Positions 40,786 to 60,409 of a stretch of DNA of 64,000 bases are shown here, one piece after another. The position numbers and the translations under genes were made by a program. Location of the stretch: positions 186,001 to 250,000 of the forward strand of contig QZLF01000002.1 of the NCBI GenBank assembly GCA_016771945.1, read 5' to 3'. Source of the DNA: Candidatus Leucobacter sulfamidivorax. Lineage in GTDB: Bacteria; Actinomycetota; Actinomycetes; Actinomycetales; Microbacteriaceae. A model generated the notes under the pieces. The model was given only the letters and a program-made list of their open reading frames with translations, was not told the DNA's origin and did no database searches. How positions within the stretch are numbered: position 1 is the first letter of the stretch; each line of letters begins with the position of its first letter.

Positions 40786-40870
40786 GTCCACAGCAGGCTT
40801 TCCCGCATACACGGCTTGGCAAGATCCTCCAGGCGGGCCGCTTGCTCGCGCCGCGACGGAGATTTCGCTT

Positions 40871-40986
40871 CAGATTCGGCGGCCTGGTGAGGCCGCGCGC
40901 GCAAATAACGAAAGCTCTGCTTTCGTTCCAGATTTGGCGGCCTAGTGAGGCCGCGCGCGCAAATTGCGAAAGCTTTGCTTTCGCTT
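40871..40986. repeat. 58-bp tandem repeat of hairpins beside tRNA-Arg
   Basis: Two units (40871-40928 and 40929-40986) with few differences. Each carries two hairpins: GCGGCCT/AGGCCGC and a 9-bp or 8-bp stem around CGAAAGC...GCTTTCG. They lie 9 bases beyond the 3' end of the reverse-strand tRNA-Arg, and are probably duplicated terminators. Confidence 0.75.
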
Positions 40987-40994
40987 GAAATTTG

Positions 40995-41068
40995 CGCGCC
41001 CCGAGGGATTCGAACCCCCGACCTTCTGATCCGTAGTCAGATGCTCTATCCAGCTGAGCTAGGGGCGC
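40995..41068 (-). tRNA. tRNA-Arg (anticodon ACG)
   Basis: Acceptor GCGCCCC/GGGGCGC, D-arm AGCTCAGCTGGATAGAGC, anticodon stem TCTGA/TCAGA with loop CTACGGA, T-arm with GGGTTCGAATCCC, discriminator G. No CCA encoded. The A in anticodon position 34 would be edited to inosine. Confidence 0.95.
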
Positions 41069-42987: not shown

Positions 42988-43044
42988 ATGACTGCCAGTA
43001 TTTCTGCGGTGCTCTCCACTGAGACTCCGGAGGTGCGACGATGA
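42988..43044 (+). CDS. 18-residue leader peptide coupled to the permease
   Basis: ATG 42988 with GAGGTGA about 6 bases upstream, better than that of the permease. It encodes MTASISAVLSTETPEVRR and its TGA overlaps the permease ATG (ATGA). This arrangement makes permease translation depend on the leader. No run of a regulatory codon is evident. Confidence 0.5.
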   Translation: MTASISAVLSTETPEVRR

Positions 43045-44536: not shown

Positions 44537-45991
44537 ATGGATCTGAACAAGCTCACCAAGCAGTACATCGGCGGCCACTGGCGCGACGGCGGCAGCGACA
44601 AGCGGCTGAGCGTGCGAAACCCCTACAACGACGAGGAGGTCGGCTCGTTCGCGATCGCGACGCGCGAGGACATCGACGAGGCGTACCGCTCCGCGAAGGC
44701 CGCGCAGAAGGAGTGGGCGGCGCTGACCGCGTACCAGCGTCGCGACGTCTTCGAGAAGGCCGCGCAGATCGTCGCAGAGCGACGCGGCGAGATCATCGAC
44801 ATCATCATCAAGGAGGTCGGCGGCACCGCGCTGAAGGCCAACTTCGAGATCGGCCTCGCGATCGACTCTCTCAAGGAGGCGGCCTCGACCGGCTTCAAGG
44901 TGATCGGCAGCATCATCCCCTCGCAGGTGCCGAACACCGACAACTACGTGTTCCGCAAGCCGGTGGGCGTGGTGGGCGTGATCAGCCCGTTCAACTTCCC
45001 GTTCTTCCTGGGCATCAAGCCGGTGCTCGCCGCGCTGGCGACGGGCAACGGCGTGGTGATGAAGCCGCACGAGGAGACCCCGATCACCGGCGGCACGCTG
45101 ATGGCGGAGATCCTCGAGGATGCGGGGCTGCCCGGCGGCCTGTTCAACATCACGGTCACCGAGATCCCCGAGATCGGCGACTACTTCCTCGAGCACCCGA
45201 TCCCGCGGGTGCACATCTTCACCGGCTCGGCCCCGGTCGGGCGTCACGTCGCCGAGGTCAGCGCCCGTCACTTCAAGAAGGCGATTCTGGAGCTCGGCGG
45301 CAACAACGCGTTCATCGTGCTGGAGGATGCGGACATCGACTACGCCGTCGAGGCCGCCACGTTCAGCCGATTCACCCACCAGGGGCAGATCTGCATGTCC
45401 GCCAATCGCCTGCTCGTGCACCGGAGCGTGGCCGCGGAGTTCAAGGAGAAGTTCGCGAAGAAGGTCGCGAGCCTCACCACCGGCGACCCCGCCGATCCTG
45501 CGACGATCGTCGGCCCGTTGATCAACGACCGCGAAGTCGCGAGCCTGCAGCAGCGGGTCGACGATGCCCTCGCCGGCGGTGCGACCGCGCTCGTGCGTTC
45601 GGAGAGCTCGGGCAACGTGCTCGGCCCGGTCGTGCTCGACGGCGTGAAGAACTCCGATCCGGTGGCGCAGGGCGAGCTGTTCGGCCCCGTGATCCTGGTC
45701 ATGGAGTTCGACACCGACGACGAGGCGATCGACATCGCGAACGATTCGCTCTACGGCCTGTCGGGCGCCATTCACACCCGAGACCTGATGCGCGGAGTGG
45801 AGATGGCCAAGCAGATCGAGACCGGCATGGTGCACATCAACGACATCTCGATCTTCGACGAGCCGATCGTGCCCTTCGGCGGTGAGAAGCAGTCGGGCAT
45901 CGGGCGTCTGAGCGGTCAGGCGACGATCGACGAACTCACGACGCAGCAGTGGATCTCGGTGAACCACGGCCAGTCCCGCTTCCCCTACTAA
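44537..45991 (+). CDS. Aldehyde dehydrogenase (benzaldehyde/vanillin type)
   Basis: 484 residues from ATG 44537. Asn153 in SPFNFPFFLG, Glu252 in LELGGNNAFIV and nucleophile Cys286 in HQGQICMSANR are all in place. Sequence style is closest to aromatic aldehyde dehydrogenases. It oxidises an aldehyde to the acid with NAD(P)+. In this island it could act on the aldehyde released by the hydratase-aldolase at 50655-51683. Confidence 0.93.
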   Translation: MDLNKLTKQYIGGHWRDGGSDKRLSVRNPYNDEEVGSFAIATREDIDEAYRSAKAAQKEWAALTAYQRRDVFEKAAQIVAERRGEIIDIIIKEVGGTALKANFEIGLAIDSLKEAASTGFKVIGSIIPSQVPNTDNYVFRKPVGVVGVISPFNFPFFLGIKPVLAALATGNGVVMKPHEETPITGGTLMAEILEDAGLPGGLFNITVTEIPEIGDYFLEHPIPRVHIFTGSAPVGRHVAEVSARHFKKAILELGGNNAFIVLEDADIDYAVEAATFSRFTHQGQICMSANRLLVHRSVAAEFKEKFAKKVASLTTGDPADPATIVGPLINDREVASLQQRVDDALAGGATALVRSESSGNVLGPVVLDGVKNSDPVAQGELFGPVILVMEFDTDDEAIDIANDSLYGLSGAIHTRDLMRGVEMAKQIETGMVHINDISIFDEPIVPFGGEKQSGIGRLSGQATIDELTTQQWISVNHGQSRFPY

Positions 45992-46166: not shown

Positions 46167-47369
46167 GTGCGAGAGGGCGATGGCGCCTACATCACCACGG
46201 TCGAGGGGCATCGACTGCTCGACCTCAACAACAACTTCACCGTGAACGCGCTCGGTCACAACCACCCCGCCGTGCAGGAGGCGCTGCGGGCGGCCATCGA
46301 GACGGGAGTCTCCTTCGGCAACCCGGTCGAGCTCGAGACTGAGCTCGCGCAGCTCATCGTCGACCGCATCGAGTCGATCGAGAAGGTGCAGTTCTCGTGC
46401 TCGGCCTCCGAGTCGAACATGAGCGCCATCCGCCTCGCCCGCGCCTTCACCGGCCGCGAACGCATCGCGAAGTTCGAGGGCGGCTACCACGGCTTCACGG
46501 ATCCGCTGCAGATCTCGTGGCATCCCGATCACGACGGCGACTGCGGCCCCGACGACGAGCCCAAGCCGATGCCCGACAGCGCCGGCATCCCCTCCGCCGA
46601 GATCGCGAACGCGGTCGTGCTCACCCAGAACGACTGGGAGGGCACCGAGCGGATCCTGCGGGCGCACGCCGATGAGGTGTCCTGCGTCGTCCTCGAGCTG
46701 GAGAGCGCCTCGGGCGGCGTCGTCACTCTCACCCGGGAGTACGTCACGCGCCTGCGCGAGCTCACCGCCGAGCTCGGCATCGTGCTGATCGTCGACGAGA
46801 CCGTCACTCTGCGCGCCGGCTACCACGGCATGCAGTCCGACTACGGGATCAAGCCCGATCTCACGGTGATGGGCAAGATCATCGGCGGCGGCTTCCCGCT
46901 CGGCGCGGTCGGCGGCTCGGCCGAGATCATGGACCTGCTCGAGACCGGGGTCGTCTCGATCTCGGGCACCCACCACGGGCACAAGATCGCCCTCATCGCC
47001 GGCATCGCGACGATGCGCGCGCTGACCCATGAGGCCTTCGACCGCCTCAACAGCATGGCCCGCCGCATCATGGACGAGATCAACGAGTGGGCCGCGGCAC
47101 GGGGCAGCCGGTTCGCGATCTACGGCATCGGCATCTCGCATCTCGCCTACGGCTTCATGCGCGAGCCCGGCCTGACCATCGACACGCATCGCGACTACTG
47201 GCGCAATTTCGACGACGAGGCCACCCAGGCATGTTCGCTCGAACTCGCCAATCGCGGCTACTTCCCGGTGGCGCGCGGTGACTTCTCGCTGAACCTGCAG
47301 ATGACGGATGAGGACATCGCCGGTTTCATCGAGACCCTCAAGGAGATCGTCGCCGGCATCGAGGCGTGA
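46167..47369 (+). CDS. Class III aminotransferase (glutamate-1-semialdehyde aminomutase-like), start codon lost or unusual
   Basis: From GTG 46167 there are 400 residues. The same open frame encodes a further ~45 conserved residues upstream (LKTFSSRFAKSAELTERGKT, VIPGGYSRNSFNFGPHAIYV), back to about 46029. No ATG, GTG or TTG occurs in that frame between the stop at 45960 and 46167. A likely ribosome-binding site (GAGGG, 46017-46021) is followed by AGTCTCTCGCC where ATGTCTCTCGCC would be expected. PLP enzyme motifs are intact: FSCSASESNMSAIRLARAFT, IVDETVTLR, and Lys in VMGKIIGGGFPLGAVGG. Starting at GTG would remove part of the substrate-pocket segment, so activity is uncertain. Confidence 0.82.
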   Translation: MREGDGAYITTVEGHRLLDLNNNFTVNALGHNHPAVQEALRAAIETGVSFGNPVELETELAQLIVDRIESIEKVQFSCSASESNMSAIRLARAFTGRERIAKFEGGYHGFTDPLQISWHPDHDGDCGPDDEPKPMPDSAGIPSAEIANAVVLTQNDWEGTERILRAHADEVSCVVLELESASGGVVTLTREYVTRLRELTAELGIVLIVDETVTLRAGYHGMQSDYGIKPDLTVMGKIIGGGFPLGAVGGSAEIMDLLETGVVSISGTHHGHKIALIAGIATMRALTHEAFDRLNSMARRIMDEINEWAAARGSRFAIYGIGISHLAYGFMREPGLTIDTHRDYWRNFDDEATQACSLELANRGYFPVARGDFSLNLQMTDEDIAGFIETLKEIVAGIEA

Positions 47370-47491: not shown

Positions 47492-48415
47492 ATGACGCTC
47501 AACTTCACGTTGCGACAGCTCGAGTACTTCCACGCGGTCGCCGCGCATTCGAGCATCAGCGCCGCCGCCGAGAAGCAGAGGATCTCCCGCTCGGCGCTCG
47601 CCTCGGCGATCTCCGATCTCGAGACGGCGCTCGGCTGCAGGCTCTTCACCCGGCAGAAGGCCCGCGGAGTGATGCTCACCCCGGTCGGCGCTCAACTGCT
47701 CGAGATGAGCAGGGAGGTGCTCGACAGCGCGAGCCGGATCGAGGCGGTGCTGCGCGGTGCGGAACTCTCGGGCAGCCTCGGGATCGGCTGCTTCAACGCG
47801 CTCGGTCCGACCGTCGTGCCGCCGCTGCTCGACCACTTCCGACGGAACCATCCGCGGGTGACGCTGCGCGTGCAGACCGGCATGCTCGAGGAGCTCACCG
47901 CCATGCTCAAGTCCGGTGAGATCGAGCTGGCGGTCGGCTACGGTCTGAACTACGACTCTCTCCTCCAGGCCGAGGAGGTCTATACGGAGCGTATGCACGT
48001 CATCCTGCCCGAGGGGCATCCGCTCGCCGAGAAGGACGTCGTGAGCGCCTCCGATCTCCGGGATGAGACCATGGTGCTGCTCGACACCCCGCAGAACTCG
48101 GAGAACGTGCGCAGCTATTTCGCCGGTCAGGGCTTCGTGCCGAGAATCGGGTATCGCTTCAAGAACTTCGAGGTGATCCGCTCGCTGGTCGCCCGTGGCG
48201 TCGGGTACTCCCTGGTGATCCAGCACCCGGTGACGAACCTCTCCTACGAGGGACTGGGGATCGTCCCCAGGCCGCTCGACCCGCCGCCGTTCCCCGTCTC
48301 CGTGTCGGTCGCCTGGCTCGTGGGTCGTGCGCTGTCGCCTCTTGCGCGAGAGGCGCGGACCGCGCTGCAGGCGATGGACCGGCCGCCGGCGGCGAGCAGG
48401 TTCTACGACGACTGA
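47492..48415 (+). CDS. LysR-family transcriptional regulator
   Basis: 307 residues from ATG 47492 behind GGAGG. N-terminal helix-turn-helix: TLRQLEYFHAVAAHSSISAA, RSALASAISDLETALGCRLF. The C-terminal periplasmic-binding-protein-like effector domain begins ~GSLGIGCFNALGPTVVPPLL. It lies downstream of the aminotransferase and ends 13 bases inside the convergent GntR gene. Probably controls one of the catabolic units with a pathway intermediate as effector. Confidence 0.92.
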   Translation: MTLNFTLRQLEYFHAVAAHSSISAAAEKQRISRSALASAISDLETALGCRLFTRQKARGVMLTPVGAQLLEMSREVLDSASRIEAVLRGAELSGSLGIGCFNALGPTVVPPLLDHFRRNHPRVTLRVQTGMLEELTAMLKSGEIELAVGYGLNYDSLLQAEEVYTERMHVILPEGHPLAEKDVVSASDLRDETMVLLDTPQNSENVRSYFAGQGFVPRIGYRFKNFEVIRSLVARGVGYSLVIQHPVTNLSYEGLGIVPRPLDPPPFPVSVSVAWLVGRALSPLAREARTALQAMDRPPAASRFYDD

Positions 48416-49125
48416 GGCCGCGCCGTCTCGGAGGGCGTCGACGTGTTTGGCTCCTGCGGCTGCTCCCATGCGGCGAGCACCGGCAGCGTCGCGGCGGCCG
48501 AGGCGCGCACGTGGGCGATGCAGGCCGCCCGGGCTTCGACCGGGTCGCCCACGAGCACCGCGTTCACGATGCGCTGCAGGCCGTCCAGCGTCGATTCCGC
48601 CCGCTCCGCCATCGAGACCGAGACGCGGCGCACCTGGTTGATGCGCACGTGCAGCAGCTCGATGAGCCGGTGCAGCTCCGGGTTCCTGGCACCGCGCAGG
48701 AGATGCCCGTAGTAGATGTCGCTCAGAACGAGCGTGCGGGTGACGTCCCCGTCGTGCATGGCCTCGCGCACCGGCTCGAGCGACTGGGCGAACTCGATCT
48801 TCTCCTCGGGGGTGCCGCGCACGGCGAAGAGCTGTCCGGCGAGCCCTTCCAGTTCCTCGCGCACCTGGTACATGTCGAGCGCATCCGAGTAGCTGAGCGA
48901 CTTCACTCGGGCTCCTCGGTTCTCGTTCAGCTCGAGGATCCCCTCGGCGGCGAGGTACCGCAGCGCCTCGCGCACGCCGGTGCGGCCGACGCCGTATCGG
49001 AGGGTGAGCTCGCGCTCGACGAGTTTCACGCCCGGTGCGTACTCGCCGTTCGCGATGGCGCGACGAAGCGCTTCCCTGAGATCCGCGGCGGTGTCGATGT
49101 CGCGGGCAGTGGCGGCAGTGGTCAT
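48403..49125 (-). CDS. GntR-family (FadR-type) transcriptional regulator
   Basis: 240 residues from ATG 49125 (AGGA ten bases upstream). Winged helix: LREALRRAIANGEYAPGVKL, RYGVGRTGVREALRYLAAEG. A FadR/FCD-type all-helical C-terminal domain follows, with conserved Asp/His candidates for metal binding (LVLSDIYYGHLLRGARN, AACIAHVRAS). Its divergent position next to the ring-cleavage operon, and TTGTCGACAT sites on both sides of the intergenic region, make it the likely repressor of that operon and of itself. Confidence 0.92.
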   Translation of the reverse strand: MTTAATARDIDTAADLREALRRAIANGEYAPGVKLVERELTLRYGVGRTGVREALRYLAAEGILELNENRGARVKSLSYSDALDMYQVREELEGLAGQLFAVRGTPEEKIEFAQSLEPVREAMHDGDVTRTLVLSDIYYGHLLRGARNPELHRLIELLHVRINQVRRVSVSMAERAESTLDGLQRIVNAVLVGDPVEARAACIAHVRASAAATLPVLAAWEQPQEPNTSTPSETARPQSS

Positions 49126-49259
49126 GGCAGGTCCTGTTTCGCTGACGGTCGAGTGTGCATCAGGTGGTGACGAGCATAGCGAGTGCCGCCGCGAGAACCT
49201 CGGGCGGACGGGGCGTGGCACGCCGGAATGCTGCGATTTTCGATGCTGATGTCCTCAAA

Positions 49260-49521: not shown

Positions 49522-49773
49522 ATGTACGAACTGCACAAGCTGCTCTGGGACATCCGAAAGGATCCCGAGCTCGCCGAGAGCTTCCGTGCCGACCCGACTC
49601 CGATTCTCGACGAGTACGGCCTCGAGGGCGACGCCCGCGAGGCGATGGCCACGCTGGATTTCAAGAAGCTGCACGAGATCGGCGCCAATCCCTACCTGAT
49701 CTACTTCTGCGCCATTCAGCTGCGGGTGGATCGCGCGGAGTACTACGCACAGATTCGTGAGGAGAAGAACTGA
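49522..49773 (+). CDS. Extradiol dioxygenase small (LigA-like) subunit
   Basis: 83 residues from ATG 49522 with AAGGAGGAG upstream. It is helical, starting MYELHKLLWDIRKDPELAES, with a conserved D-F-K-K-L...G-A-N-P-Y-L pattern like the alpha subunit of protocatechuate 4,5-dioxygenase-type enzymes. The small subunit caps the active site of the LigB-like partner encoded next; stop and start share one base (TGATG). Confidence 0.82.
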   Translation: MYELHKLLWDIRKDPELAESFRADPTPILDEYGLEGDAREAMATLDFKKLHEIGANPYLIYFCAIQLRVDRAEYYAQIREEKN

Positions 49774-50618
49774 TGGGCAAGATCGTGGGCGCCTTTGCTG
49801 GATCGCATTCCCCCGGGGTGACGGGTTGGCCCGAGCGGGCCGAACCGGCCAAGCGCGAGGCCGTCGAGAGCGCGTTCGCCGAGGCTCGCCGTCGCATCGA
49901 CGCGCTCGCGCCCGATGCGATCATCGGCATCTCGGTGGAGCACTTCACCAACTTCAACTTCGGCAATCTTCCGGCGTTCGCGGTCTCGACCGCCGATTCG
50001 CACCTCGGTCCGGTCACCACGGAGATGGCCGAGTTCCTGCGCGTTCCGCAGCACCAGTACCCTAGCAATGGGAGGCTCGGGCGTCACATCTACGAGTTCG
50101 CGATCGCCAACGAATTCGATCCGGCGCTCGTCGAGGGCGGCATGGCCTTCGACGAGAACTTCTGCGTGCCGTTCAAGCACTTCGACCCCGAGACCAGGTA
50201 CCCGATGGTGCCGATCATCGTCAACGGGGTGAACCCGCCCTGGCCCACCGCGAAGCGCAGCTACGAGTTCGGCGAGATGATCCGCCGCGCCGTCGAGGCG
50301 CAGGACGAGGTCGAGCGCGTCGTGGTCGTCGGCACCGGCGGCCTCTCGCACTGGGTCGGCCTGCCCGAGTCGGGCACGGTCAACGAGGAGTTCGACCGCG
50401 ACTTCATCGCTCGGATCGAGAGCGGCGATCCCGAGCAGCTGAAGAGCTACTCGCCGGCCGAGATCGACGCGGCGGGCAACGGCGCGCACGAGGTGCGCAC
50501 CTGGATCGCCGCCGCGGGCGCCATCGGCGCCCCCTTCGAGGTGCTCGCCTACGAGCCCGTCCCCGAATGGCTGACCGGTACGGCCGTCGCCGTGTCCACT
50601 CCCGGCTTCGAAGACTAG
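49773..50618 (+). CDS. Class III extradiol ring-cleavage dioxygenase (LigB-like)
   Basis: 281 residues. Fe(II) ligands His12 (SHSPG), His57 (VEHFTNF) and Glu240 (NGAHEVRTW) and the catalytic His193 (GTGGLSHWVG) are at nearly the same numbers as in LigB of Sphingobium. It opens a catechol ring next to the hydroxyls with O2. The substrate is unknown; LigAB-type enzymes include those acting on bicyclic or biaryl diols. The next gene, a hydratase-aldolase, fits a meta-cleavage product with a long side chain. Confidence 0.92.
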   Translation: MGKIVGAFAGSHSPGVTGWPERAEPAKREAVESAFAEARRRIDALAPDAIIGISVEHFTNFNFGNLPAFAVSTADSHLGPVTTEMAEFLRVPQHQYPSNGRLGRHIYEFAIANEFDPALVEGGMAFDENFCVPFKHFDPETRYPMVPIIVNGVNPPWPTAKRSYEFGEMIRRAVEAQDEVERVVVVGTGGLSHWVGLPESGTVNEEFDRDFIARIESGDPEQLKSYSPAEIDAAGNGAHEVRTWIAAAGAIGAPFEVLAYEPVPEWLTGTAVAVSTPGFED

Positions 50619-50654
50619 TCACGACCCCCGAATCCAACCAAGGAGAAACGAAAT

Positions 50655-51683
50655 ATGAGCAAGCTCCCCAAGGTCACCGGCCGCGACATGCGCGGTGTCA
50701 TGGCCTACCCTCCCACCCCGGCCCTCCCCGGCGCCGATGAGGTCGAGGCCCAGAACACCGTCGATCTCGTCGAGACCGAGCGCATGATCAAGCAGCTCAT
50801 CACTGATGGGGTCGACGCGATCGCGCTCAACGGCACCCTCGGCGAGATGGCGACCCTGACCCTCGACGAGTGGAGGGCGTACGCCGAGTGCGCCGTGCAG
50901 ACCGCGCACGCGATCGACCCGGACTTCCCGATCTTCGTCGGTGCGACCACCCTGAGCACCCGCGACACGATCTCGCGCATGCGCTTCCTCTCGTCGCTCG
51001 GTGCGACCGGCACCCTGCTCGGCCGCCCGATGTGGGGCGAGATGGTCGCTCCCGTCATGGAGAAGTTCTACCGCGATGTGGCCGAGGCCGTGCCCGAGAT
51101 GGCGATCGTGGTCTACGACAACACCGCGGCTTTCGGCGGCATCATCCCCCGTTCGGTGTACCGCACCCTGGTGCAGCTGCCCCAGGTCGTCGCAGTCAAG
51201 TACGCCGGCGGCGCCTCGGTCGGCTTCCGCTACCACAACGACATGGCTCACACCGGCACCCGGTTCCCGCTGATGCCGATCGAGACCGACTGGTTCCCCG
51301 CCTGGGAGATGTACGGCGAGGAGCTCGTCGGCATGGCCTGGTCGTCGACCACCGCGATGGGTCCGGATCCGGTGCTGCAGCTGCGCGATGCGCTGCAGCA
51401 GGGCCGCACCGAGGATGCCCGCTGGCTGACGGAGCGTCTCCGCTGGGCGCATGAGCCCTTCATCGTGGGCCAGGACTTCTTCGAGTTCGCGAAGTACAAC
51501 ATCCCGCTCGAGAAGATCCGCGTCAACCAGGCCGGCTACATCCACGTGGGCAAGAGCCGCGTTCCCTACGTCGAGGACCTCGTGCCCCAGGTGCACTGGG
51601 ACACCACGTACGAGCACGTCGAGCGCTACAAGCAGATCAGCGCCGAGATCGAGGCGCGCCTCGGCGCTCACCCGAAGAAGTAA
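50655..51683 (+). CDS. DapA-family hydratase-aldolase (NahE/PhdJ-like)
   Basis: 342 residues from ATG 50655 behind AAGGAGAAA. TIM-barrel DapA family: GVDAIALNGTLGEMATLTLD (phosphate/pyruvate loop), catalytic Tyr in AIVVYDNTAAFGG, Schiff-base Lys in VVAVKYAGGASVGFRY. The MSKLPKVTGRDMRGVMAYPP opening and the WPAWEMYGEELVG-like segment are typical of trans-o-hydroxybenzylidenepyruvate and carboxybenzalpyruvate hydratase-aldolases. It adds water to an arylidene pyruvate and splits off pyruvate, leaving an aromatic aldehyde. Confidence 0.88.
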   Translation: MSKLPKVTGRDMRGVMAYPPTPALPGADEVEAQNTVDLVETERMIKQLITDGVDAIALNGTLGEMATLTLDEWRAYAECAVQTAHAIDPDFPIFVGATTLSTRDTISRMRFLSSLGATGTLLGRPMWGEMVAPVMEKFYRDVAEAVPEMAIVVYDNTAAFGGIIPRSVYRTLVQLPQVVAVKYAGGASVGFRYHNDMAHTGTRFPLMPIETDWFPAWEMYGEELVGMAWSSTTAMGPDPVLQLRDALQQGRTEDARWLTERLRWAHEPFIVGQDFFEFAKYNIPLEKIRVNQAGYIHVGKSRVPYVEDLVPQVHWDTTYEHVERYKQISAEIEARLGAHPKK

Positions 51684-51716
51684 GCAAGTCCATTCCGCTA
51701 GAGATCGGTGGCCATC

Positions 51717-53030
51717 ATGACGACGGAGTCGGCAGACAAGGTGCAGCAGCGCCTGCGCGAGATCCGCGAGGGTATCCAGCAGGGCCGCTTCCCCGCGCAC
51801 GTGTTCAACGATCAGGAGATCTTCGATCTCGAACAGGAGCGACTGTTCGGTCAGGCGTGGTCGTTCCTCGCGCACGAGTCGGAGATCCCTCAGCCGGGCG
51901 ACTACGTCACCCGGTACATCGGGAACAACAACCTGATCGTCGCCCGCGACGAGCACGGCGAGATCCACGCGAATCTCAACATGTGCCGTCACCGCGGCAA
52001 CATGATGTGCAAATCGGAGATGGGCAACGCGTCCCACTTCCGCTGCTCCTACCACGGGTGGGTGTACAAGAACTCCGGCGAACTCATCGGCGTGCCGTAC
52101 ATCAAGGAGGGGTACGACGGCGCGCTCAAGAGGAAGGACTGGGGCCTCGTCAAGGCACGAGTCGACACGTATGCGGGCCTGGTGTTCGGCACGTTCAACC
52201 AGGATGCTCCGCCGCTCGACGAGTACCTCGGCGGGTTCCAGTTCTACCTCGATCTCTACCTGAAGCAGGGCCTGGCTGGGAGCGAGGTGCATGGCCCGCC
52301 GGATCACTGGATCACCGAGACCGACTGGAAGATCGCCGCGGAGAACTTCTCGGGCGACGGCTACCACACTCCGGTGGCTCACCAGTTCGGCTTCAACCTC
52401 GGCTACTTCCCGTCGTCCGGCGCGACGCACAGCCAGGGATGGGCGGCGAGCATCCCCGGCAAGGGCCACGGCATCGGCCTCGGCCACACGCCCGGCTTCA
52501 CCCCCTTCGCGGGCTTCCCCGACGAGCTCACGGAGGAGATGAAGCGCAGCTTCTCGCCCGAGCAGATCGAGGTGTTCAGCAACACGCGCACCGCCGTGGG
52601 CACGGTGTTCCCGAACCTCTCGTTCCTGATGCAGCCGTTCAGCCTCGTACCGGGCGAGCCCGGCGTGCGCTTCGTGACGATGCGCCTGTACCATCCCATC
52701 GGCCCGGGCAAGACCGAGATGTGGTCGTGGTGCCTCGTGCCGAAGGAGGCCTCGGACGAGTACAAGGAAGCGGCCTATCAGGCCTACACCCTCGCCTTCG
52801 CCCAGGCCGGCACCTTCGAGCAGGACGACCTCGAGAACTGGGCCCGTGTGAGCCGCATGGCCAAGTCCTCGGCCGCGCGCGACATCGACTTCCCCTACCT
52901 GATGAGCATGGAGGGGGAGCGGGATCCGGATTTCCCCGGCCCCGGTCACGTGGTGAAGCCCTACGTCAACGACACCAACTTCCGCAATCTCTGGAGCCGC
53001 TGGGCCGACTATCTGCTCGGGGAGGCGTGA
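51717..53030 (+). CDS. Rieske ring-hydroxylating dioxygenase, alpha subunit
   Basis: 437 residues from ATG 51717 (GTG 51708 possible). Rieske ligands Cys90-X-His92 and Cys110-X2-His113 (NMCRHRGNMMC, FRCSYHGWVY). Bridging Asp214 and mononuclear-iron ligands His217 and His222 in GDGYHTPVAHQ. It adds both atoms of O2 to an aromatic ring to give a cis-dihydrodiol. With the beta subunit (next gene), the ferredoxin and the reductase of this operon it forms a complete three-component system. Confidence 0.95.
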   Translation: MTTESADKVQQRLREIREGIQQGRFPAHVFNDQEIFDLEQERLFGQAWSFLAHESEIPQPGDYVTRYIGNNNLIVARDEHGEIHANLNMCRHRGNMMCKSEMGNASHFRCSYHGWVYKNSGELIGVPYIKEGYDGALKRKDWGLVKARVDTYAGLVFGTFNQDAPPLDEYLGGFQFYLDLYLKQGLAGSEVHGPPDHWITETDWKIAAENFSGDGYHTPVAHQFGFNLGYFPSSGATHSQGWAASIPGKGHGIGLGHTPGFTPFAGFPDELTEEMKRSFSPEQIEVFSNTRTAVGTVFPNLSFLMQPFSLVPGEPGVRFVTMRLYHPIGPGKTEMWSWCLVPKEASDEYKEAAYQAYTLAFAQAGTFEQDDLENWARVSRMAKSSAARDIDFPYLMSMEGERDPDFPGPGHVVKPYVNDTNFRNLWSRWADYLLGEA

Positions 53031-53032
53031 CC

Positions 53033-53554
53033 ATGGACAAGCTCAGCAGCGTGGACCGCACGACGCAGGAGGACATCCGCGAGTTCCTGTTCCGAGAAGC
53101 GCTCGCGCTCGATGAGCGCCGCTTCCGGGATTGGCTCGACTACCTGGCCGAGGACATCACCTACGACGTGCCCCTGCGCGTCGTGCGCGAGGACCTCGCG
53201 GAGTGGGAGCTCTCGCCGAACGGGCGCATCTTCCAGGACAACAAGCAGACCCTCGAGGTGCGCGTGCGGCGCCTCGAGACCGACTTCGCCTGGGCGGAAC
53301 AGCCGCCTTCGCGCACCCGCCACTATGTGACGAGCGTGCTCATCGACGAGGGCGAGAACGAGGGGGAGTTCGACGTCAAGTCGTACTGCCTCATCTATCG
53401 GAGTCGCGGCGACAGCCCCGATCCCAACTTCGTGTCGGTGTATCGCAAGGACGTGATCCGCCGCACCGCTGGTGGCTTCTTCGAGATCGCCAGCCGTTAC
53501 GCGGCCATCGATCAGGCGGTCATCAACGCCCACAACCTGTCCATCTTCATCTAG
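53033..53554 (+). CDS. Ring-hydroxylating dioxygenase, beta subunit
   Basis: 173 residues from ATG 53033, two bases after the alpha stop. SnoaL-like fold: EDIREFLFREALALDERRFR, DWLDYLAEDITYDVPLR, TRHYVTSVLIDEGENEGEFD, and FVSVYRKDVIRRTAGGFFEI. It packs with alpha as an alpha3beta3 hexamer and supports stability and specificity. Confidence 0.94.
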   Translation: MDKLSSVDRTTQEDIREFLFREALALDERRFRDWLDYLAEDITYDVPLRVVREDLAEWELSPNGRIFQDNKQTLEVRVRRLETDFAWAEQPPSRTRHYVTSVLIDEGENEGEFDVKSYCLIYRSRGDSPDPNFVSVYRKDVIRRTAGGFFEIASRYAAIDQAVINAHNLSIFI

Positions 53555-53567
53555 GGAGATGCCAACC

Positions 53568-53843
53568 ATGTCCACGGAAGCACGGCCGCAGGCCGAGAAC
53601 CCCGAAGAGGGGGAGCTCTTCGAGTTCCCCCAGGACGGCGGAAACGCCGGGCCGATCGTCATCGCGAACGAGTTCGCCGATGTGGTCGTGCGCAAGGTCG
53701 AGACCCGCAACGGCGTCCGCCTCGAGCTCTGGTCCCCCCGTCGCGGCACCTGCGTCCGCTACGACGCGGTCGCGCTCGATGTGCTCAGCTATCAGGAGCC
53801 CGAGTTCATCACCGAGCTCCTCACCCGGACCCCCGGCGCATGA
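53568..53843 (+). CDS. Small conserved protein of dioxygenase operons, unknown
   Basis: 91 residues from ATG 53568 with GGGAGA upstream. The N-terminal third is acidic and flexible; the rest is compact (IVIANEFADVVVRKVETRNG, VRLELWSPRRGTCVRYDAVA) and ends LLTRTPGA. Similar small proteins accompany actinobacterial ring-hydroxylating dioxygenases and are sometimes labelled dihydrodiol dehydrogenase, but this one has no Rossmann motif and is too short for that. It overlaps the SDR start (ATGA). An accessory role for the oxygenase is inference. Confidence 0.7.
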   Translation: MSTEARPQAENPEEGELFEFPQDGGNAGPIVIANEFADVVVRKVETRNGVRLELWSPRRGTCVRYDAVALDVLSYQEPEFITELLTRTPGA

Positions 53844-54625
53844 GCGAGTCTCTCGCCGGGCTCCACGTCCTCGTGACGGGTGGCGGATCGGGCATCGCCC
53901 GCGCCGCCGCCGAGCGCTACGACCGCGAGGGTGCGGTGGTCACCGTGCTGAACCGATCGCCCGAGGGCGCCGCCGATGTCCGCGAGACCTCGGGCGGGCG
54001 GATCAAGACGATCGTCGGCGACGCCACCGATCCCGACGTGATCGCCGAGGCGGTGGCCGCCTCGGTCGACGAGCAGGGGCGCCTGCACCACCTCACCTGC
54101 GGGGTGGGCGTCTTCGACAGCTACGCCAAGGTCACCGGGCTCTCCGTCGACGAGCTGCTGATCGCGGCGGAGGAGAGCTGGAGGGTCAACGTCCTCGGCA
54201 CCCTCCTCGCGGTGAATCTCGCCGTGCCGGCCCTCCGTGCCGCGGGCAACGGCTCGATCACCCTGACGCTCTCCGAGTCGGCGTTCAACGCCATCGGCGG
54301 CGGCGTGCTGTACGGCAGCTCGAAGTGGGCGCTCCGCGGCGCGGTCGAGCACCTCGCCGCAGAGCTGGCGCCCGAGATCCGGGTCAACGGCGTCGCCCCC
54401 GGCGGCACGACCGGCACCCGCTTCGGGGGGCTCTCCTCGCTCGGCCAGACGGTCACCGCGGATCGGGTCGAGGGGCGGGACGAGCGGATCGCGTCCAGCA
54501 CCCTGCTCGGCTTCGCGGCGACTCCCGAGGACCACGCCGGCGCATACCGACTGCTCGCGGACCCGGCCGACAGCCGGGCGGTCACGGGCGTCGTGATCCG
54601 CAGCGACGGGGGACGCAGGCTCTGA
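53840..54625 (+). CDS. SDR-family cis-dihydrodiol dehydrogenase
   Basis: 261 residues from ATG 53840. NAD-binding GGGSGIA near residue 14, active-site Ser in TLSESAFN, and YGSSK (Tyr-X3-Lys). Position after the Rieske genes and the BphB-like style suggest it re-aromatises the cis-dihydrodiol to the catechol with NAD+, which the LigAB-type enzyme then cleaves. Closely coupled to the upstream small protein. Confidence 0.9.
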   Translation: MSESLAGLHVLVTGGGSGIARAAAERYDREGAVVTVLNRSPEGAADVRETSGGRIKTIVGDATDPDVIAEAVAASVDEQGRLHHLTCGVGVFDSYAKVTGLSVDELLIAAEESWRVNVLGTLLAVNLAVPALRAAGNGSITLTLSESAFNAIGGGVLYGSSKWALRGAVEHLAAELAPEIRVNGVAPGGTTGTRFGGLSSLGQTVTADRVEGRDERIASSTLLGFAATPEDHAGAYRLLADPADSRAVTGVVIRSDGGRRL

Positions 54626-54714
54626 TCACGACCGCGACCTCTCACACCCAGACGGGACCCGGGTCCGGGCTCCTGCCACGACTCCCGCCCCACAGCATCT
54701 AGGAGACAAGTTCA

Positions 54715-55302
54715 ATGTCAGAAACGATGATCGATATCCGCAAGATCTTCTCGCAGGTCGAGGAGATCCGCACCTCGGCCGGTCGTGAGGACGGTACTCC
54801 GCTGCGCAAGGTCGCGGTGTGCGCCGTGATCAAGAACCCCTACGCCGGGCTCGGCTACGTCGAGGACCTCTCCGCGCTGATCCGGGCCTCGGACGCGATC
54901 GGCCGCGAGCTGGGGGAGCGGGCGCTGAGCCTGCTCGGCGCACCGGTCGAGAGCTATGGCAAAGGCGGACTCGTGGGTGAGGCGGGCGAGCAGGAGCACA
55001 TCAACGCCGCGCTGACCTCGGTCTTCGGCAACGCGTTCCGCGAGGCCATCGGCGGCGGGGCGGCCTGGATCACCTCGGTGACCAAGGCCGGCGCCGCCGG
55101 CGCGGTGATCGACATCCCGACGGCGTACAAGGACGAGGTCTGGGTGCGCTCGCACTACGACGGCATGGAGGTCCGGATCCCCGACGCCCCGCATGCGGAT
55201 GAGCTCGTGGTCATCGCGGCCGTCACCAACCGCGGCCGTCTGAACGCCCGCGTGGGCGGCATGTCGGTGGCCGAGGCGAAGGCGAAGGGCGATCAGTCGT
55301 GA
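54715..55302 (+). CDS. AA_synth (DUF1185) family protein
   Basis: 195 residues from ATG 54715 with AGGAGA upstream. Family features: RKVAVCAVIKNPYAG near the N-terminus, ESYGKGGLVGEAGEQEHINA, AWITSVTKAGAAGAVIDIPT, and VWVRSHYDGMEVRIPDAPHA. Called amino acid synthesis family, but the reaction is not established. Its stop overlaps the amidohydrolase start (GTGA), and the pair is likely to act in sequence, perhaps opening a cyclic amide or imide; that is inference. Confidence 0.88.
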   Translation: MSETMIDIRKIFSQVEEIRTSAGREDGTPLRKVAVCAVIKNPYAGLGYVEDLSALIRASDAIGRELGERALSLLGAPVESYGKGGLVGEAGEQEHINAALTSVFGNAFREAIGGGAAWITSVTKAGAAGAVIDIPTAYKDEVWVRSHYDGMEVRIPDAPHADELVVIAAVTNRGRLNARVGGMSVAEAKAKGDQS

Positions 55303-56501
55303 GCGGCTCGCTCGCCGTCGTCGGAGCCGGGATCATCCTCTCGGGCGACCACCGCGCGCCGATCGTGGCGGATGCCGACACCGTCATCGTGCGCGACGGG
55401 CTGATCACCGCCGTCGGGCGTCAGGTCGATCTGCAGGCCGAGGTCGACGCCTCGCCGCAGGTGGTCGATGCCGCCGGCACGACGGTCGCCCCGGGGCTCA
55501 TCGATTCGCACTGCCACGTCGTGCTCGGCGACTACACCCCGCGCCAGAAGACGGTGGACTTCCTCGCGAGCTACGTGCACGGCGGCATCACGAGCGTCGT
55601 CTCGCCGGGCGAGATCCACGCACCGGGCCGTCCGAGCTCGGCTGCCGGTGTGAAGGCTCTGGCCATCGCGGCGAAGGAGTGCTTCGACAACTTCCATCCC
55701 GGCGGCATGACCGTGCACGCCGGCGCGGTCGTGCTCGAGCCCACGCTCTCCGAGCAGGACTTCGCCGATCTCCAGGAGGTCGGAGTGCATCTCGCCAAGT
55801 TCGGCTTCGGCAAGTACTCCGACCCGGCCGACGGCGTCGACCAGGTGCGCTGGGCGAAGGAGCACGGAATCACCGTGATGTGCCATTCGGGCGGCGCGAG
55901 CATCCCAGGCAGTAAGCCGATCACCCCCGAGCACCTGCTCGCCCTCGCACCTCACGTCTGCGGCCACGTCAACGGCGGGCCGACCGCACTGCGCGAAGAC
56001 GGCGTCGACCTCATCATGGACGAGACCGACATGGCTCTGCAGCTCGTGCAGGCCGGCAATCTCCGCTCCGCCGTGCGCATCATCGATCGCGCCGCGGAGA
56101 AGGGCATGTTCGAGCGCGTCGTCATCGGCTCGGATACGCCGACCGGCACCGGTGTGATGCCGCTCGGCGTGCTGAAGACCGTCGCCGAGCTCTCGTCGCT
56201 CTCGGAGGTCGCGCCCGAGCTGGTCTGGGCGGCGGCCTCGGGCAACAACGCCCGTGTCTGGGACCTGCCCGCCGGCTTCATCGAGCCGGGGCGCGCCGCC
56301 GACATCGTCGTGCTCGACGCCCCCTGGGGCTCCACGCGCGACGACGCCCTGGGCGCTCTCGAGGTCGGCGACATCCCGGGCATCACCGCGGTCATCACGG
56401 GCGGGGTCGTGCGGGCGCTGCGCAGCCGCAACACCCCGGCGGCGGCGCGTGCGGCCGTCGTGACCCCGCGCATCGAGCACTTGGAGTCCGCCGGCCACTG
56501 A
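55299..56501 (+). CDS. Amidohydrolase-family metal-dependent hydrolase
   Basis: 400 residues from GTG 55299. HxH metal motif in GLIDSHCHVVLGDY, further His in VMCHSGGASIPGSK and HVCGHVNGGPTALREDG, and Asp in IGSDTPTGTGVMPL. The N- and C-terminal beta-sandwich halves are present. It hydrolyses an amide, lactam or similar C-N bond in the pathway. Coupled to the AA_synth-family gene. Confidence 0.9.
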   Translation: MSGSLAVVGAGIILSGDHRAPIVADADTVIVRDGLITAVGRQVDLQAEVDASPQVVDAAGTTVAPGLIDSHCHVVLGDYTPRQKTVDFLASYVHGGITSVVSPGEIHAPGRPSSAAGVKALAIAAKECFDNFHPGGMTVHAGAVVLEPTLSEQDFADLQEVGVHLAKFGFGKYSDPADGVDQVRWAKEHGITVMCHSGGASIPGSKPITPEHLLALAPHVCGHVNGGPTALREDGVDLIMDETDMALQLVQAGNLRSAVRIIDRAAEKGMFERVVIGSDTPTGTGVMPLGVLKTVAELSSLSEVAPELVWAAASGNNARVWDLPAGFIEPGRAADIVVLDAPWGSTRDDALGALEVGDIPGITAVITGGVVRALRSRNTPAAARAAVVTPRIEHLESAGH

Positions 56502-56537
56502 GGGCCGGCCGGCTGCGACGAAGCAAGGGAGTAGGAC

Positions 56538-56744
56538 ATGTCATTCAAGATCACCGTCGATCTCGGGCTGTGCCAGGGCTACGCGGCATGCCTGATCGAG
56601 AGCCCGGCGCTCTTCGACATCGATGACGACACCGAGAAGGCCGTCGTGCTCGGCGGCCCCGAGCACGACGAGTCGATGCGCCAGCAGGCCGAGGCGGCGA
56701 TGCGGGCCTGCCCGGCCCGGGCCATCACGATCGAGGACGCGTGA
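56538..56744 (+). CDS. [3Fe-4S] ferredoxin
   Basis: 68 residues from ATG 56538 behind AAGGGAG. Three cysteines only: C-Q-G-Y-A-A-C (with Ala where a fourth ligand would be) and the distal Cys in MRACPARAI. This is the single-cluster [3Fe-4S] type used by actinobacterial P450s and by Phd/Nid-type dioxygenases. It carries electrons from the reductase to the Rieske oxygenase. Confidence 0.93.
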   Translation: MSFKITVDLGLCQGYAACLIESPALFDIDDDTEKAVVLGGPEHDESMRQQAEAAMRACPARAITIEDA

Positions 56745-57937
56745 TGCGACGAGTAGTGGTGGTCGGCGGCTCGGTCGGCGGCGTGCACGCCGCCGAGGCG
56801 CTGCGCGACCAGGGCTTCGAGGGCGAGGTGACCCTCGTCTCCGCCGATGCTCAGCTGCCCTACGACCGGCCTCCGCTGTCGAAGGACGTGCTGCTCGGCA
56901 AGACGGACGCCGATCGGATCCTGCTGCGGCCGGCCGGCTGGTACGAGGAGCGCGATATCGATCTCCGTCTCGGCAACGCCGCACGCGGCCTCGACGCGGC
57001 CTCGAAGACCCTGAGCCTCGCCGACGGCTCCGAGCTCGGCTACGACGGTCTGGTGCTCGCGACCGGCTCGGCGGCTCGCACGCTGACCCTGCCGGAGGGC
57101 TCGCCCGAGGTGCACGTGGTGCGCACCCTCGAGGACGTCGAGGGGCTGCGGCCCGAGCTGCAGCCCGGTCGCCGTCTGGTGATGATCGGCGCGGGCTTCA
57201 TCGGCCTCGAGATCGCCGCGGTCGCGGTGCAGCTGGGGCTCGAGGTCACCGTCCTCGAGTACGCGCCCTCCCCGCTCGCCCGGGTGTTCGGCGGCGAGGT
57301 CGGCGGCTGGTACCGCGGGCTGCACGAGCGCAACGGCGTCAGGATGATCTGCGGCGTCTCGATCACCGGCACCGAGCCGGCCCCCGGCGGCGTGACGATG
57401 ACACTCGACAACGGCGAGACCGTCACGGCCGAGGTCGTCGTGGCCGGCATCGGTGCGGCTCCCGCGATCGAGTGGCTCGCAGGCAGCGGCGTCGAACTCG
57501 GCAACGGCGTGCTCTGCTCCCCGGATCTGCGCACCTCCGCGCCCGACGTCGTCGCGGTCGGCGACATCGCCAACTGGCGCAATGCCGCCTTCGACGAGGA
57601 GATGCGGGTCGAGCACTGGACCAACGCCTCGGAGCAGGGACGTCACGCCGTGACCACGCTGCTCGGCGACTCCGCGCCCTTCTCCTCGGTCCCGTACTTC
57701 TGGACCGACCAGTACGACACCAAGCTGCGCTTCGTCGGCCGTGCCGCGGGCTTCACCGATTCCCGCATCGAATCGATGACGGACGACAAGCTCGTGGTCA
57801 CCATCGGCCGGGACGGCGTGCTGATCGGCGCGCTCTGCCTCGGCGCACCGCGTCACCTGGCGAGATACAAGGCCGCGATCCAGGCGAAGACCCCCTGGCA
57901 CGACTCGGCCGCCCTGGCCGAGGGACTCCCCGCCTGA
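56744..57937 (+). CDS. FAD-dependent ferredoxin reductase
   Basis: 397 residues from ATG 56744 (GTG 56741 also possible); it overlaps the ferredoxin stop. FAD-binding VVVVGGSVGGVHAAEALRDQ, NAD(P)-binding RLVMIGAGFIGLEIAAVAVQ, and second FAD motif TSAPDVVAVGDIANW. The C-terminal reductase domain is normal. It supplies electrons from NAD(P)H to the adjacent ferredoxin. Confidence 0.94.
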   Translation: MRRVVVVGGSVGGVHAAEALRDQGFEGEVTLVSADAQLPYDRPPLSKDVLLGKTDADRILLRPAGWYEERDIDLRLGNAARGLDAASKTLSLADGSELGYDGLVLATGSAARTLTLPEGSPEVHVVRTLEDVEGLRPELQPGRRLVMIGAGFIGLEIAAVAVQLGLEVTVLEYAPSPLARVFGGEVGGWYRGLHERNGVRMICGVSITGTEPAPGGVTMTLDNGETVTAEVVVAGIGAAPAIEWLAGSGVELGNGVLCSPDLRTSAPDVVAVGDIANWRNAAFDEEMRVEHWTNASEQGRHAVTTLLGDSAPFSSVPYFWTDQYDTKLRFVGRAAGFTDSRIESMTDDKLVVTIGRDGVLIGALCLGAPRHLARYKAAIQAKTPWHDSAALAEGLPA

Positions 57938-57972
57938 CTCCATACCTTCCCCACCAATTCAAGGAGAAATCA

Positions 57973-59109
57973 ATGACCACTGTGAACAACGGCGACGCGC
58001 TGTCGCTCATCGAGCTTTTCCCGCAGGACGAGGACTGGTCGCTGCAGACCATGCGCCTGCTCTCGCAGGTCGCGGTCGGCGGTGCGGATCTCTTCGAGTG
58101 CGCCCGCACCGCGGCCCGCATCGGCGAGGAGACCACCGACGGGGAGGTCTGGCAGCAGGAGTGGAGCCGCACCGGCAAGGAGGTCGCGGCGGCCGCGCAG
58201 GCCGCGCTCGAGGCCGGCCACATCACCACCGCCCGTCGAGCCTTCTTCCGCGCGATGAGCTACTGGCGTCATTCGGAGTTCTTCCTGCATCGCGACGACC
58301 CGCGTCGCACCGAGGCCTACAACGAGGGCCGCAAGAACTTCCGCAAGGCCGTCGAGCTCTCCGACGGTCTCATCGAGCAGATCGCCGTGCCCTTCGAGGG
58401 CGTCGAGATGGAGGGCTACATCGTCCGCCCCGACAACTCGGGCGAGGCCCGTCCCACCGTGCTGTTCCTCGGAGGCGCCGACTCGTGGGCCGAGGAGCTC
58501 TACTTCCTCGGCGGCACCGAGTTCCCGGCTCGCGGCCTGAACGTCGTGATGGTCGACACCCCGGGTCGCGGCAGCTCGCTCCGCTTCAAGGAGCTCTACA
58601 GCCGTCCGGACTACGAGGTACCGGTCGCGGCGATCCTCGACTTCCTCGAGAGGCGGAGCGATGTGGACGCCGATCGCATCGGGCTCGCCGGCGTGAGCTT
58701 CGGCGGCTACTACGCTCCGCGCGCCGCCGCGTTCGAGCCGCGCGTCAAGGCCGTCGCGGCCTGGTGCGGCACCTGGAGCATCCTCACCGACTTCTACGAG
58801 TTCTACCCGCCGCTGCAGGAGCAGCTGCAGTGGCTCAGCGGCTCGAAGGACGACGCCGAGGCCCGCGAGAAGCTCGCGAAGTTCACCCTCGACGGGGTCG
58901 CGGACAAGCTCAAGATCCCGGTCTACGTGATGCACGGCACCGCCGACATCATCATGGACATCGCGGGTGCTCACAAGTTCATCGATGCGCTGACCTCCGA
59001 TGACGTGACCGTGGACATCTACGATGCCGCCGGCTCGCTGCACTGCAGCTACGACTACATGTCCGTCGCGGGTGCGCGCCTGGGCGATTGGTTCCTCGAC
59101 CGCATCTGA
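57973..59109 (+). CDS. Alpha/beta hydrolase (2,6-dihydroxypseudooxynicotine hydrolase-like)
   Basis: 378 residues from ATG 57973 behind AAGGAG. An N-terminal helical domain (~1-130, WRHSEFFLHRDDPRRTEAYN) is characteristic of the DHPON hydrolase/FrsA group. Nucleophile Ser in GLAGVSFGGYYAPRAA, oxyanion region FLGGADSWAEELYFLG, acid Asp in MHGTADIIMDIAGA, His in AGSLHCSYDYMSV. Members cleave a C-C bond of a 1,3-diketone-like substrate or act as esterases. It is the last gene of the operon before a hairpin terminator and may split the side chain from the ring. Confidence 0.88.
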   Translation: MTTVNNGDALSLIELFPQDEDWSLQTMRLLSQVAVGGADLFECARTAARIGEETTDGEVWQQEWSRTGKEVAAAAQAALEAGHITTARRAFFRAMSYWRHSEFFLHRDDPRRTEAYNEGRKNFRKAVELSDGLIEQIAVPFEGVEMEGYIVRPDNSGEARPTVLFLGGADSWAEELYFLGGTEFPARGLNVVMVDTPGRGSSLRFKELYSRPDYEVPVAAILDFLERRSDVDADRIGLAGVSFGGYYAPRAAAFEPRVKAVAAWCGTWSILTDFYEFYPPLQEQLQWLSGSKDDAEAREKLAKFTLDGVADKLKIPVYVMHGTADIIMDIAGAHKFIDALTSDDVTVDIYDAAGSLHCSYDYMSVAGARLGDWFLDRI

Positions 59110-60403: not shown

Positions 60404-60409
60404 CGCCAG

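Follow-up and report, generated by a model that had tools for sequence, protein, structure and literature searches.

A candidate operon for aerobic degradation of a quinoline-type nitrogen heteroaromatic in Candidatus Leucobacter sulfamidivorax

Which aromatic compound do the products of a densely packed gene set in Candidatus Leucobacter sulfamidivorax degrade? The set spans positions 49522-59109 of the 64,000-nucleotide stretch analyzed here (the window), which belongs to contig C2; the genome measures 3.84 Mb and is 94% complete. An earlier note had read it as a Rieske oxygenase, ferredoxin, reductase, short-chain dehydrogenase/reductase (SDR), hydratase-aldolase and aldehyde dehydrogenase (ALDH) combined with LigAB-type ring cleavage, an AA_synth protein, an amidohydrolase and a C-C hydrolase. 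Searches of Pfam and NCBIfam families and of PDB sequences found every enzyme so named. The 12-gene set stands, with two corrections to the inventory: the ALDH gene lies upstream of the interval, and a conserved gene for a 91-residue protein had gone unlisted (Table 1). By its predicted enzymes, the operon would join the upper-pathway plan of naphthalene and phenanthrene degradation to a lower pathway for a nitrogen heterocycle, and we consider it rather probable that it serves the aerobic degradation of a quinoline-type bicyclic nitrogen heteroaromatic. Our best single candidate for the substrate, put forward tentatively, is kynurenate (4-hydroxyquinoline-2-carboxylate).

Layout, conservation and distribution of the gene set

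The 12 plus-strand genes are separated by intergenic gaps of only -4 to +89 nucleotides (nt), and the last is followed by 262 nt and then ABC-transporter genes, making a single operon plausible. A scan of the region for sigma-70-type promoters found no promoter-like site, a terminator scan gave 5 terminator-like sites against 2.4 expected, and a repeat search over 40800-63000 returned mostly coding-sequence noise. Because locus L050, in a Microbacterium metagenome-assembled genome (MAG), has a different gene behind its C-C hydrolase, we left the ABC transporter (59372-62937) and the next gene, for a YtcJ-like amidohydrolase, out of the system.

A LigB search of 394 genomes of the class returned six others at 69-75% identity and then a gap to at most 38%; the 20 further genomes listed from the same family stayed at or below 36%, so the operon is sporadic. 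Scanning a genome collection with alignment A1 yielded 85 pattern stretches; 21 of these code for a relative, at 52-86% identity. With these 21 loci we compared one Rhodococcus plasmid, three further genomes and a Thermomicrobium plasmid, giving 26 loci; three others were not counted because their contigs are already represented by L056, L061 and L063. Presence in a neighborhood was scored at identity thresholds picked per gene (35-50%) with 30% coverage. The closest relatives of the operon are found in Salinibacterium, Microbacterium and Leucobacter (LigB 86%).

The same gene order, which the earlier note had proposed to look for in other genomes, recurs in other genera, and the set is found in many actinobacteria. 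LigA, LigB and aldolase genes are adjacent in this order at 25/26 loci, the exception being Thermomicrobium with a VOC extradiol enzyme, and the pairing of a class III ring-cleavage enzyme with a PhdJ/NahE-type aldolase is thereby borne out. The longer order LigA-LigB-aldolase-Rieske alpha-Rieske beta-91-residue gene-SDR is kept at 19/26. Deviating from it are Leucobacter (no Rieske genes), L062 (contig end), L064 and L065 (Rieske genes elsewhere in the locus), L039 (Rieske genes divergent), L069 (no Rieske orthologue, though a 29% relative lies where the locus ends) and Thermomicrobium. The full set of 12 genes is present in 13 of the 26 neighborhoods; in several others, a contig end or the limit of the stretch examined cuts the locus. 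The lower block (AA_synth, enamidase-type amidohydrolase, ferredoxin, reductase and C-C hydrolase) directly follows the upper block in the window, L049 and L050, precedes it in L046, L054, L055, L057, L060 and L067, and lies beyond thiamin pyrophosphate (TPP) enzyme and transporter genes in L041, L052 and L058. Since L050 carries the whole block from the GAF-LuxR regulator to the C-C hydrolase, except the LysR gene, beside other genes, the comparison suggests that the block may have been transferred as a unit.

H12, H57 and H193 of LigB are conserved in 25/25 orthologues and E240 in 24/25; we take these four to be the iron ligands and catalytic histidine. K182 and Y154 of the aldolase, presumably its catalytic residues, are present in 25/25 orthologues. 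The Rieske and mononuclear-iron residues of the Rieske alpha subunit are found in 20/20, Y158 and K162 of the SDR in 23/23, the three cysteines of the ferredoxin in 16/16, and S242, D325 and H357 of the C-C hydrolase in 17/17. Because the order recurs in other genera and few, if any, of the orthologues read depart from the presumed catalytic residues, the gene set goes beyond chance. LigB itself is remote from all named class III enzymes: it matches 11 NCBIfam class III models, every one far under its cut-off. The same genome holds two further LigB relatives at 32-34% identity (C2:75377-76201, L047, and C2:138178-138876, L048), the former followed by a LigA-like stretch (34%).

The 91-residue gene accompanies the Rieske beta gene in most relatives. 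Its product had no Pfam or NCBIfam match, its structure model reached a predicted local distance difference test score (pLDDT) of 60, and a fold search with the model gave no match at E <= 1e-3 (0.001). The alignment comprises 7 of 13 prepared sequences, leaving out L056, which has a stop in the stretch, and five with unchecked ends. The Rhodococcus plasmid pNAPH also has an unnamed gene 3' of its Rieske beta gene.

Gene exchanges and the proposed upper pathway

Sequence and comparison establish the enzyme families, the operon layout, the conservation and the gene exchanges between loci; the exchanges place the first three steps. In step 1, a four-component Rieske oxygenase (alpha, beta, ferredoxin and reductase), probably assisted by the 91-residue protein, would dihydroxylate the benzo ring; in step 2, the SDR would rearomatize the cis-diol to a catechol, which LigAB would cut beside the ring junction in step 3, giving a hydroxypyridinyl-methylidene-pyruvate. 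The aldolase would then hydrate and split this product into pyruvate and a hydroxypyridine aldehyde (step 4).

Leucobacter locus L051 retains LigA, LigB, aldolase, AA_synth, enamidase and C-C hydrolase, and no orthologue of Rieske alpha or beta, the 91-residue protein, SDR, ferredoxin or reductase was found in the 20.8 kb examined, to which the search for a Rieske system in this genome was confined. It encodes a flavoprotein monooxygenase with a phenol-hydroxylase dimerization domain, 58% identical to a protein of Salinibacterium L049 that is a phenol 2-monooxygenase by NCBIfam (932 bits, cut-off 560). On this reading, the dropped genes would jointly make the catechol, and a phenol could enter the pathway at that point. 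At L049 (11969-13283), the Rieske alpha gene spans three frames, while the phenol hydroxylase gene nearby is free of such breaks; either the draft contains a sequencing error, or the Rieske route has been lost here, as it was in Leucobacter.

Thermomicrobium has the aldolase, Rieske alpha and beta, the small gene, SDR, AA_synth and enamidase, and no LigAB within the 29 kb examined. A VOC extradiol enzyme is encoded eighth after the enamidase gene and, since it is present instead, LigAB can be assigned to the ring-cleavage step.

A third exchange concerns the C-C hydrolase, which has an orthologue in 16 of the 23 genomes or records searched whole (own genome counted; the others at 76-87% identity). 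The seven without it are five with a CoxL gene (G183, G102, G019, G090 and G402), Thermomicrobium, which has a molybdopterin subunit of the CoxL family, and Nonomuraea (G408), which has CoxG on a cut contig. At the threshold used, no CoxL was found in any neighborhood carrying the C-C hydrolase, the window included. CoxM is near in 4/5 CoxL loci; in G183, a CoxS could be identified. A crotonase-family gene adjoins AA_synth in four of the seven hydrolase-less genomes (G183, G102, G019 and G402), and two such genes follow the enamidase gene in Thermomicrobium. As crotonases can hydrolyze 1,3-diketones (6-oxocamphor hydrolase is an example) and stand beside AA_synth here, a different retro-Claisen enzyme may take the place of the C-C hydrolase. 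Oxygenation, ring cleavage and C-C hydrolysis would then be modules that can be swapped while a core of aldolase and enamidase stays.

The TPP gene, at least 42% identical, occurs in 10 of the 26 neighborhoods. By analogy, it could echo the thiamin-dependent decarboxylase that the available part of PMC12746152 describes for a quinoxaline carboxylate, which is likened there to an alpha-keto acid.

The proposed nitrogen-heterocycle lower pathway and the candidate substrates

The known naphthalene and phenanthrene upper pathways (nah, nar, phd) share with the operon a Rieske dioxygenase, a cis-diol SDR, extradiol cleavage, a hydratase-aldolase and an aromatic ALDH. Could it then be a hydrocarbon pathway of this type, in which LigAB replaces the type I enzyme and AA_synth, amidohydrolase and hydrolase are passengers? 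The Rieske alpha subunit and aldolase are indeed closest to naphthalene and phenanthrene enzymes, and aldolases encoded on Rhodococcus plasmids, pNAPH among them, show 48-49% identity. However, the operon has a class III enzyme rather than a type I/VOC dioxygenase, adds AA_synth, enamidase and C-C hydrolase, and lacks an isomerase gene: Pfam and NCBIfam searches, run on the operon genes and not genome-wide, found no NahD-type isomerase. Above all, an enamidase match at E <= 1e-60 is retained in 21/23 carriers, 20 of them at >=70% identity (own genome counted) and Thermomicrobium at 59%, with G090 (99% complete, 320 contigs) and G408 lacking it. This is not the pattern of a passenger, and on these grounds we rejected the plain hydrocarbon pathway, to which we give very little credence.

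What the retained enzyme may do is suggested by its relatives. The amidohydrolase aligns over its full length with the Eubacterium barkeri enamidase of nicotinate fermentation (2VUN; 177 identities over 381 query residues, ~46%, counted on the printed alignment), keeping the HxH motif, two further His and the Asp, and H71, H73, K167, H196, H223 and D279 are present in 22/22 orthologues. It differs from that enzyme in a Glu-to-Lys exchange, in its aerobic setting and in having no 6-hydroxynicotinate reductase around the window gene. A 10 kb cluster in Sulfitobacter combines an enamidase relative (43%) with two AA_synth genes, a 6-hydroxynicotinate reductase and a molybdenum dehydrogenase, and looks like a system for reductive nicotinate-type degradation; on this plasmid (L074, 11995-21399), UPF0280 is also encoded. 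The enamidase match (384 bits) and this clustering favor the nitrogen-bearing bicyclic substrate that the earlier note had suggested, with an acyl-substituted aromatic as its alternative. The AA_synth homologue TgnF of trigonelline degradation and the relation of CoxL to quinoline 2-oxidoreductase point the same way.

We infer the substrate, the regiochemistry and steps 5-7. In step 5, the aldehyde group would be lost either through oxidation by the ALDH, which is expected to act on the aldehyde freed by the aldolase, and decarboxylation, or through hydrolysis by the C-C hydrolase. The enamidase, with AA_synth as partner, would open and deaminate the remaining dihydroxypyridine, whose keto form is a cyclic enamide (step 6), and the C-C hydrolase could alternatively split an open-chain 1,3-diketone (step 7). 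Such a scheme needs a benzo ring fused to a nitrogen ring that becomes hydrolyzable without prior reduction once the side chain has been removed. The 4-oxygenated quinolines would fit because they yield 2,4-dihydroxypyridine, which is hydrolyzable in its keto form.

Other azaarenes could enter the same scheme: quinoline or 2-quinolone, which would give 3-formyl-2,6-dihydroxypyridine, isoquinolone, 4-quinolone, or an indole- or benzimidazole-type compound. The C-C hydrolase would then deacylate 2,6-dihydroxypyridine as in nicotine degradation, and its resemblance to 2,6-dihydroxypseudooxynicotine (DHPON) hydrolase (2JBW), with the same alpha/beta hydrolase family and the Ser, Asp and His candidates kept, speaks for this option, as does the relation of CoxL in the second group to quinoline 2-oxidoreductase. 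The hydrolase match reaches only 91.5 bits, however, with no other nicotine-pathway gene recognized in the operon; CoxL was not found, at the threshold used, in the window neighborhood or with the other C-C hydrolases; and 2,6-dihydroxypyridine is an imide and not the enamide acid known for enamidase. We regard such a substrate as rather unlikely.

Kynurenate, our preferred if tentative substrate, would make the operon the missing kynurenate gene set, with a Rieske 7,8-dioxygenase, an SDR, a LigAB 8,8a-dioxygenase acting on 7,8-dihydroxykynurenate, and a novel lower route. In the latter, the PhdJ-type aldolase would release pyruvate and formyl-dihydroxypicolinate, and the C-C hydrolase and enamidase/AA_synth would open the pyridine ring. 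Kynurenate degradation in Pseudomonas (Hayaishi) reportedly likewise proceeds by dihydroxylation, dihydrodiol dehydrogenase and extradiol cleavage beside the ring junction, which are steps 1-3 here; the old scheme then reduces the side chain, whereas the operon has an aldolase. The enzymatic conversion of kynurenate to 7,8-dihydroxykynurenate is reported in old work, to judge by the titles (Taniuchi and Hayaishi, 1963; Horibata, 1961). Three genomic features would follow from this choice. Linkage to a permease and an aminotransferase, which would supply kynurenate from kynurenine, would follow because kynurenine transamination makes the bicycle in one step. The phenol hydroxylase of L051 would follow because xanthurenate, through which Leucobacter would enter, is the 8-hydroxy analogue of kynurenate, and CoxL because quinaldate, through which the CoxL group would enter, is its 4-deoxy analogue. 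The TPP gene, read by analogy with the quinoxaline carboxylate decarboxylase, could be a further point for kynurenate.

Several observations weigh against kynurenate or the enamidase-based scheme. Permease and aminotransferase are linked to the operon in the window and L050 only, and an ALDH of at least 50% identity is near it in just 4/26 neighborhoods. Tryptophan dioxygenase, considered as support for kynurenate, gave none: PF03301 is found in 12/20 carriers and in 85 of 148 genomes of the class, a sample that itself includes a few carriers, so there is no enrichment, which leaves more room for the other azaarenes. Kynureninase was likewise set aside as support (13/20 carriers at E <= 1e-30, 11 of them over the cut-off), the count covering carriers only. 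CoxL is closest to carbon monoxide dehydrogenases (up to 595 bits), with quinoline 2-oxidoreductase at 494 bits. The amidohydrolase has Lys167 where the E. barkeri, Sulfitobacter and R. qingshengii relatives have Glu, which we take to be the bridging metal ligand of the E. barkeri enamidase. Moreover, KpiC, a distant enamidase relative, is reported in the available part of PMC7356986 to be a ring-cleaving dioxygenase; caution is due, as KpiC and the Glu-to-Lys exchange imply that the amidohydrolase could act otherwise.

The evidence from AA_synth points both ways. In the literature as far as available, the member TgnF acts in trigonelline degradation, which we count for a nitrogen ring, and structures of the family revealed no function. 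HcdD belongs to a 7-hydroxycoumarin cluster and so to the degradation of an oxygen heterocycle; the stimulating effect supposed for HcdD could not be demonstrated. Were the substrate an oxygen heterocycle (coumarin, chromone or a flavonoid ring), the amidohydrolase would act as a lactonase, helped by AA_synth in the way proposed for coumarin; lactonases of the amidohydrolase superfamily do exist. Yet enamidase is the only close solved relative of the amidohydrolase, other solved chains scoring at most 30.5 bits, and in Sulfitobacter AA_synth and the enamidase relative occur with 6-hydroxynicotinate reductase. We therefore hold an oxygen heterocycle to be improbable.

The lumichrome (lum) pathway of Nocardioides simplex, as far as described in the available part of PMC12746152, is alike in its actinobacterial Rieske and extradiol cleavage of a nitrogen heteroaromatic, and its TPP and xanthine-oxidase-type enzymes loosely recall the CoxL group. 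In contrast to the operon, that account gives it a cytochrome P450 (LumU) and uracil-ring hydrolases, ring nitrogens lost around the Rieske step, two small TPP proteins (LumK and LumL) instead of one 553-residue protein, and names no LigAB or PhdJ-type aldolase. Pfam and NCBIfam searches of the operon genes, not extended genome-wide, found no P450. Because the enzymes differ, we rejected the idea that the operon is a lumichrome pathway.

The earlier note had called the pathway undescribed, and in the openly licensed literature we found no identical operon already assigned to a substrate. Among the matches listed there, none for kynurenate degradation or its intermediates was a paper naming genes (a subscription paper may exist), and none for the enzyme-name combinations had this gene set. 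If the kynurenate assignment is true, the bacterial breakdown of a tryptophan end product, studied biochemically around 1960, would gain its genes, and AA_synth (PF06684), a family named by guess, would be tied to hydrolysis of nitrogen heterocycles.

Upstream genes and neighboring observations

Table 1. Features of the operon and its upstream region (window coordinates).
Feature	Coordinates	Strand	Proposed role	Basis
GAF-LuxR regulator	41809..42828	+		GerE and GAF_2; opens block common to Microbacterium MAG SH_68_12 (L050), same order
APC-family amino-acid-type permease	43041..44480	+		AA_permease_2
Aromatic ALDH	44537..45991	+		Best PDB match 4-hydroxybenzaldehyde dehydrogenase, 466 bits
Class III aminotransferase	46167..47369	+		Aminotran_3; 80% orthologue in L050
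LysR-type regulator	47492..48415	+		Family by eye; 61% orthologue in Leucobacter L051
GntR-type regulator	48403..49221	-		Family by eye; divergent from operon
LigA-type small subunit	49522..49773	+	Class III extradiol dioxygenase	PF07746, 39.4 bits
LigB-type catalytic subunit	49773..50618	+	Ring cleavage	PF02900, 128 bits
Hydratase-aldolase, DHDPS-type	50655..51683	+	Pyruvate release	PhdJ 6DAN, 234 bits; NahE, 198 bits
Rieske oxygenase alpha	51708..53030	+		Naphthalene dioxygenase 2B1X, 387 bits
Rieske oxygenase beta	53027..53554	+		PF00866, 125 bits; NCBIfam HcaF-like PRK10069, 167 bits, over cut-off
91-residue conserved orphan	53568..53843	+		No Pfam or NCBIfam match
SDR	53840..54625	+	cis-Dihydrodiol dehydrogenase	Best NCBIfam models HcaB/BphB-type, under cut-offs
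AA_synth protein	54715..55302	+	Enamidase partner	PF06684, 215 bits
Enamidase-type amidohydrolase	55299..56501	+	N-heterocycle opening	2VUN, 384 bits, full length
Single-cluster ferredoxin	56538..56744	+	Electron transfer to Rieske oxygenase	Fer4_15/Fer4_13
NAD(P)H-ferredoxin reductase	56741..57937	+		Pyr_redox_2 and Reductase_C; HcaD/AndAa-like, under cut-offs
DHPON-hydrolase-like alpha/beta hydrolase	57973..59109	+	C-C hydrolase	2,6-Dihydroxypseudooxynicotine hydrolase 2JBW, 91.5 bits

Among the 26 neighborhoods, a permease orthologue of at least 50% identity occurs only in L050 (79%), and GntR-type orthologues (55-65%) lie at the matching position in L049, L050 and L051. In L049, the ALDH orthologue is immediately 3' of the C-C hydrolase gene. 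PDB matches of the aminotransferase include an unnamed class III aminotransferase, glutamate-semialdehyde aminomutases, and beta-phenylalanine and D-phenylglycine aminotransferases. Its homology begins at ~46077, yet the first in-frame ATG, GTG or TTG is at 46167, and the frame of the L050 orthologue has 451 residues; the gene has an unusual start or is damaged.

At 40 kb, the G+C content drops from 73% to 65-67%, persisting to ~54 kb, with a tRNA-Arg gene at the drop. Two tandem 58-nt copies, 88% alike, lie at 40863-41068, immediately 5' of the tRNA-Arg gene where the content falls from 73% to 65%, and together these features possibly mark an island edge.

AA_synth and enamidase-type genes are also paired in clusters without the aldolase. 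In Shinella, the pair stands beside transporter genes; in Mariluticola and Agrobacterium vitis, it occurs with a flavin adenine dinucleotide (FAD) monooxygenase and DUF4286 (L071, 10655-16397, and L072, 11393-15200), the alphaproteobacterial clusters perhaps representing another ring-opening pathway. Past the window, at L008 (9038-11643), a luciferase-family monooxygenase and a GAF-LuxR-like regulator are encoded, homologues of which accompany the operon in other genomes.

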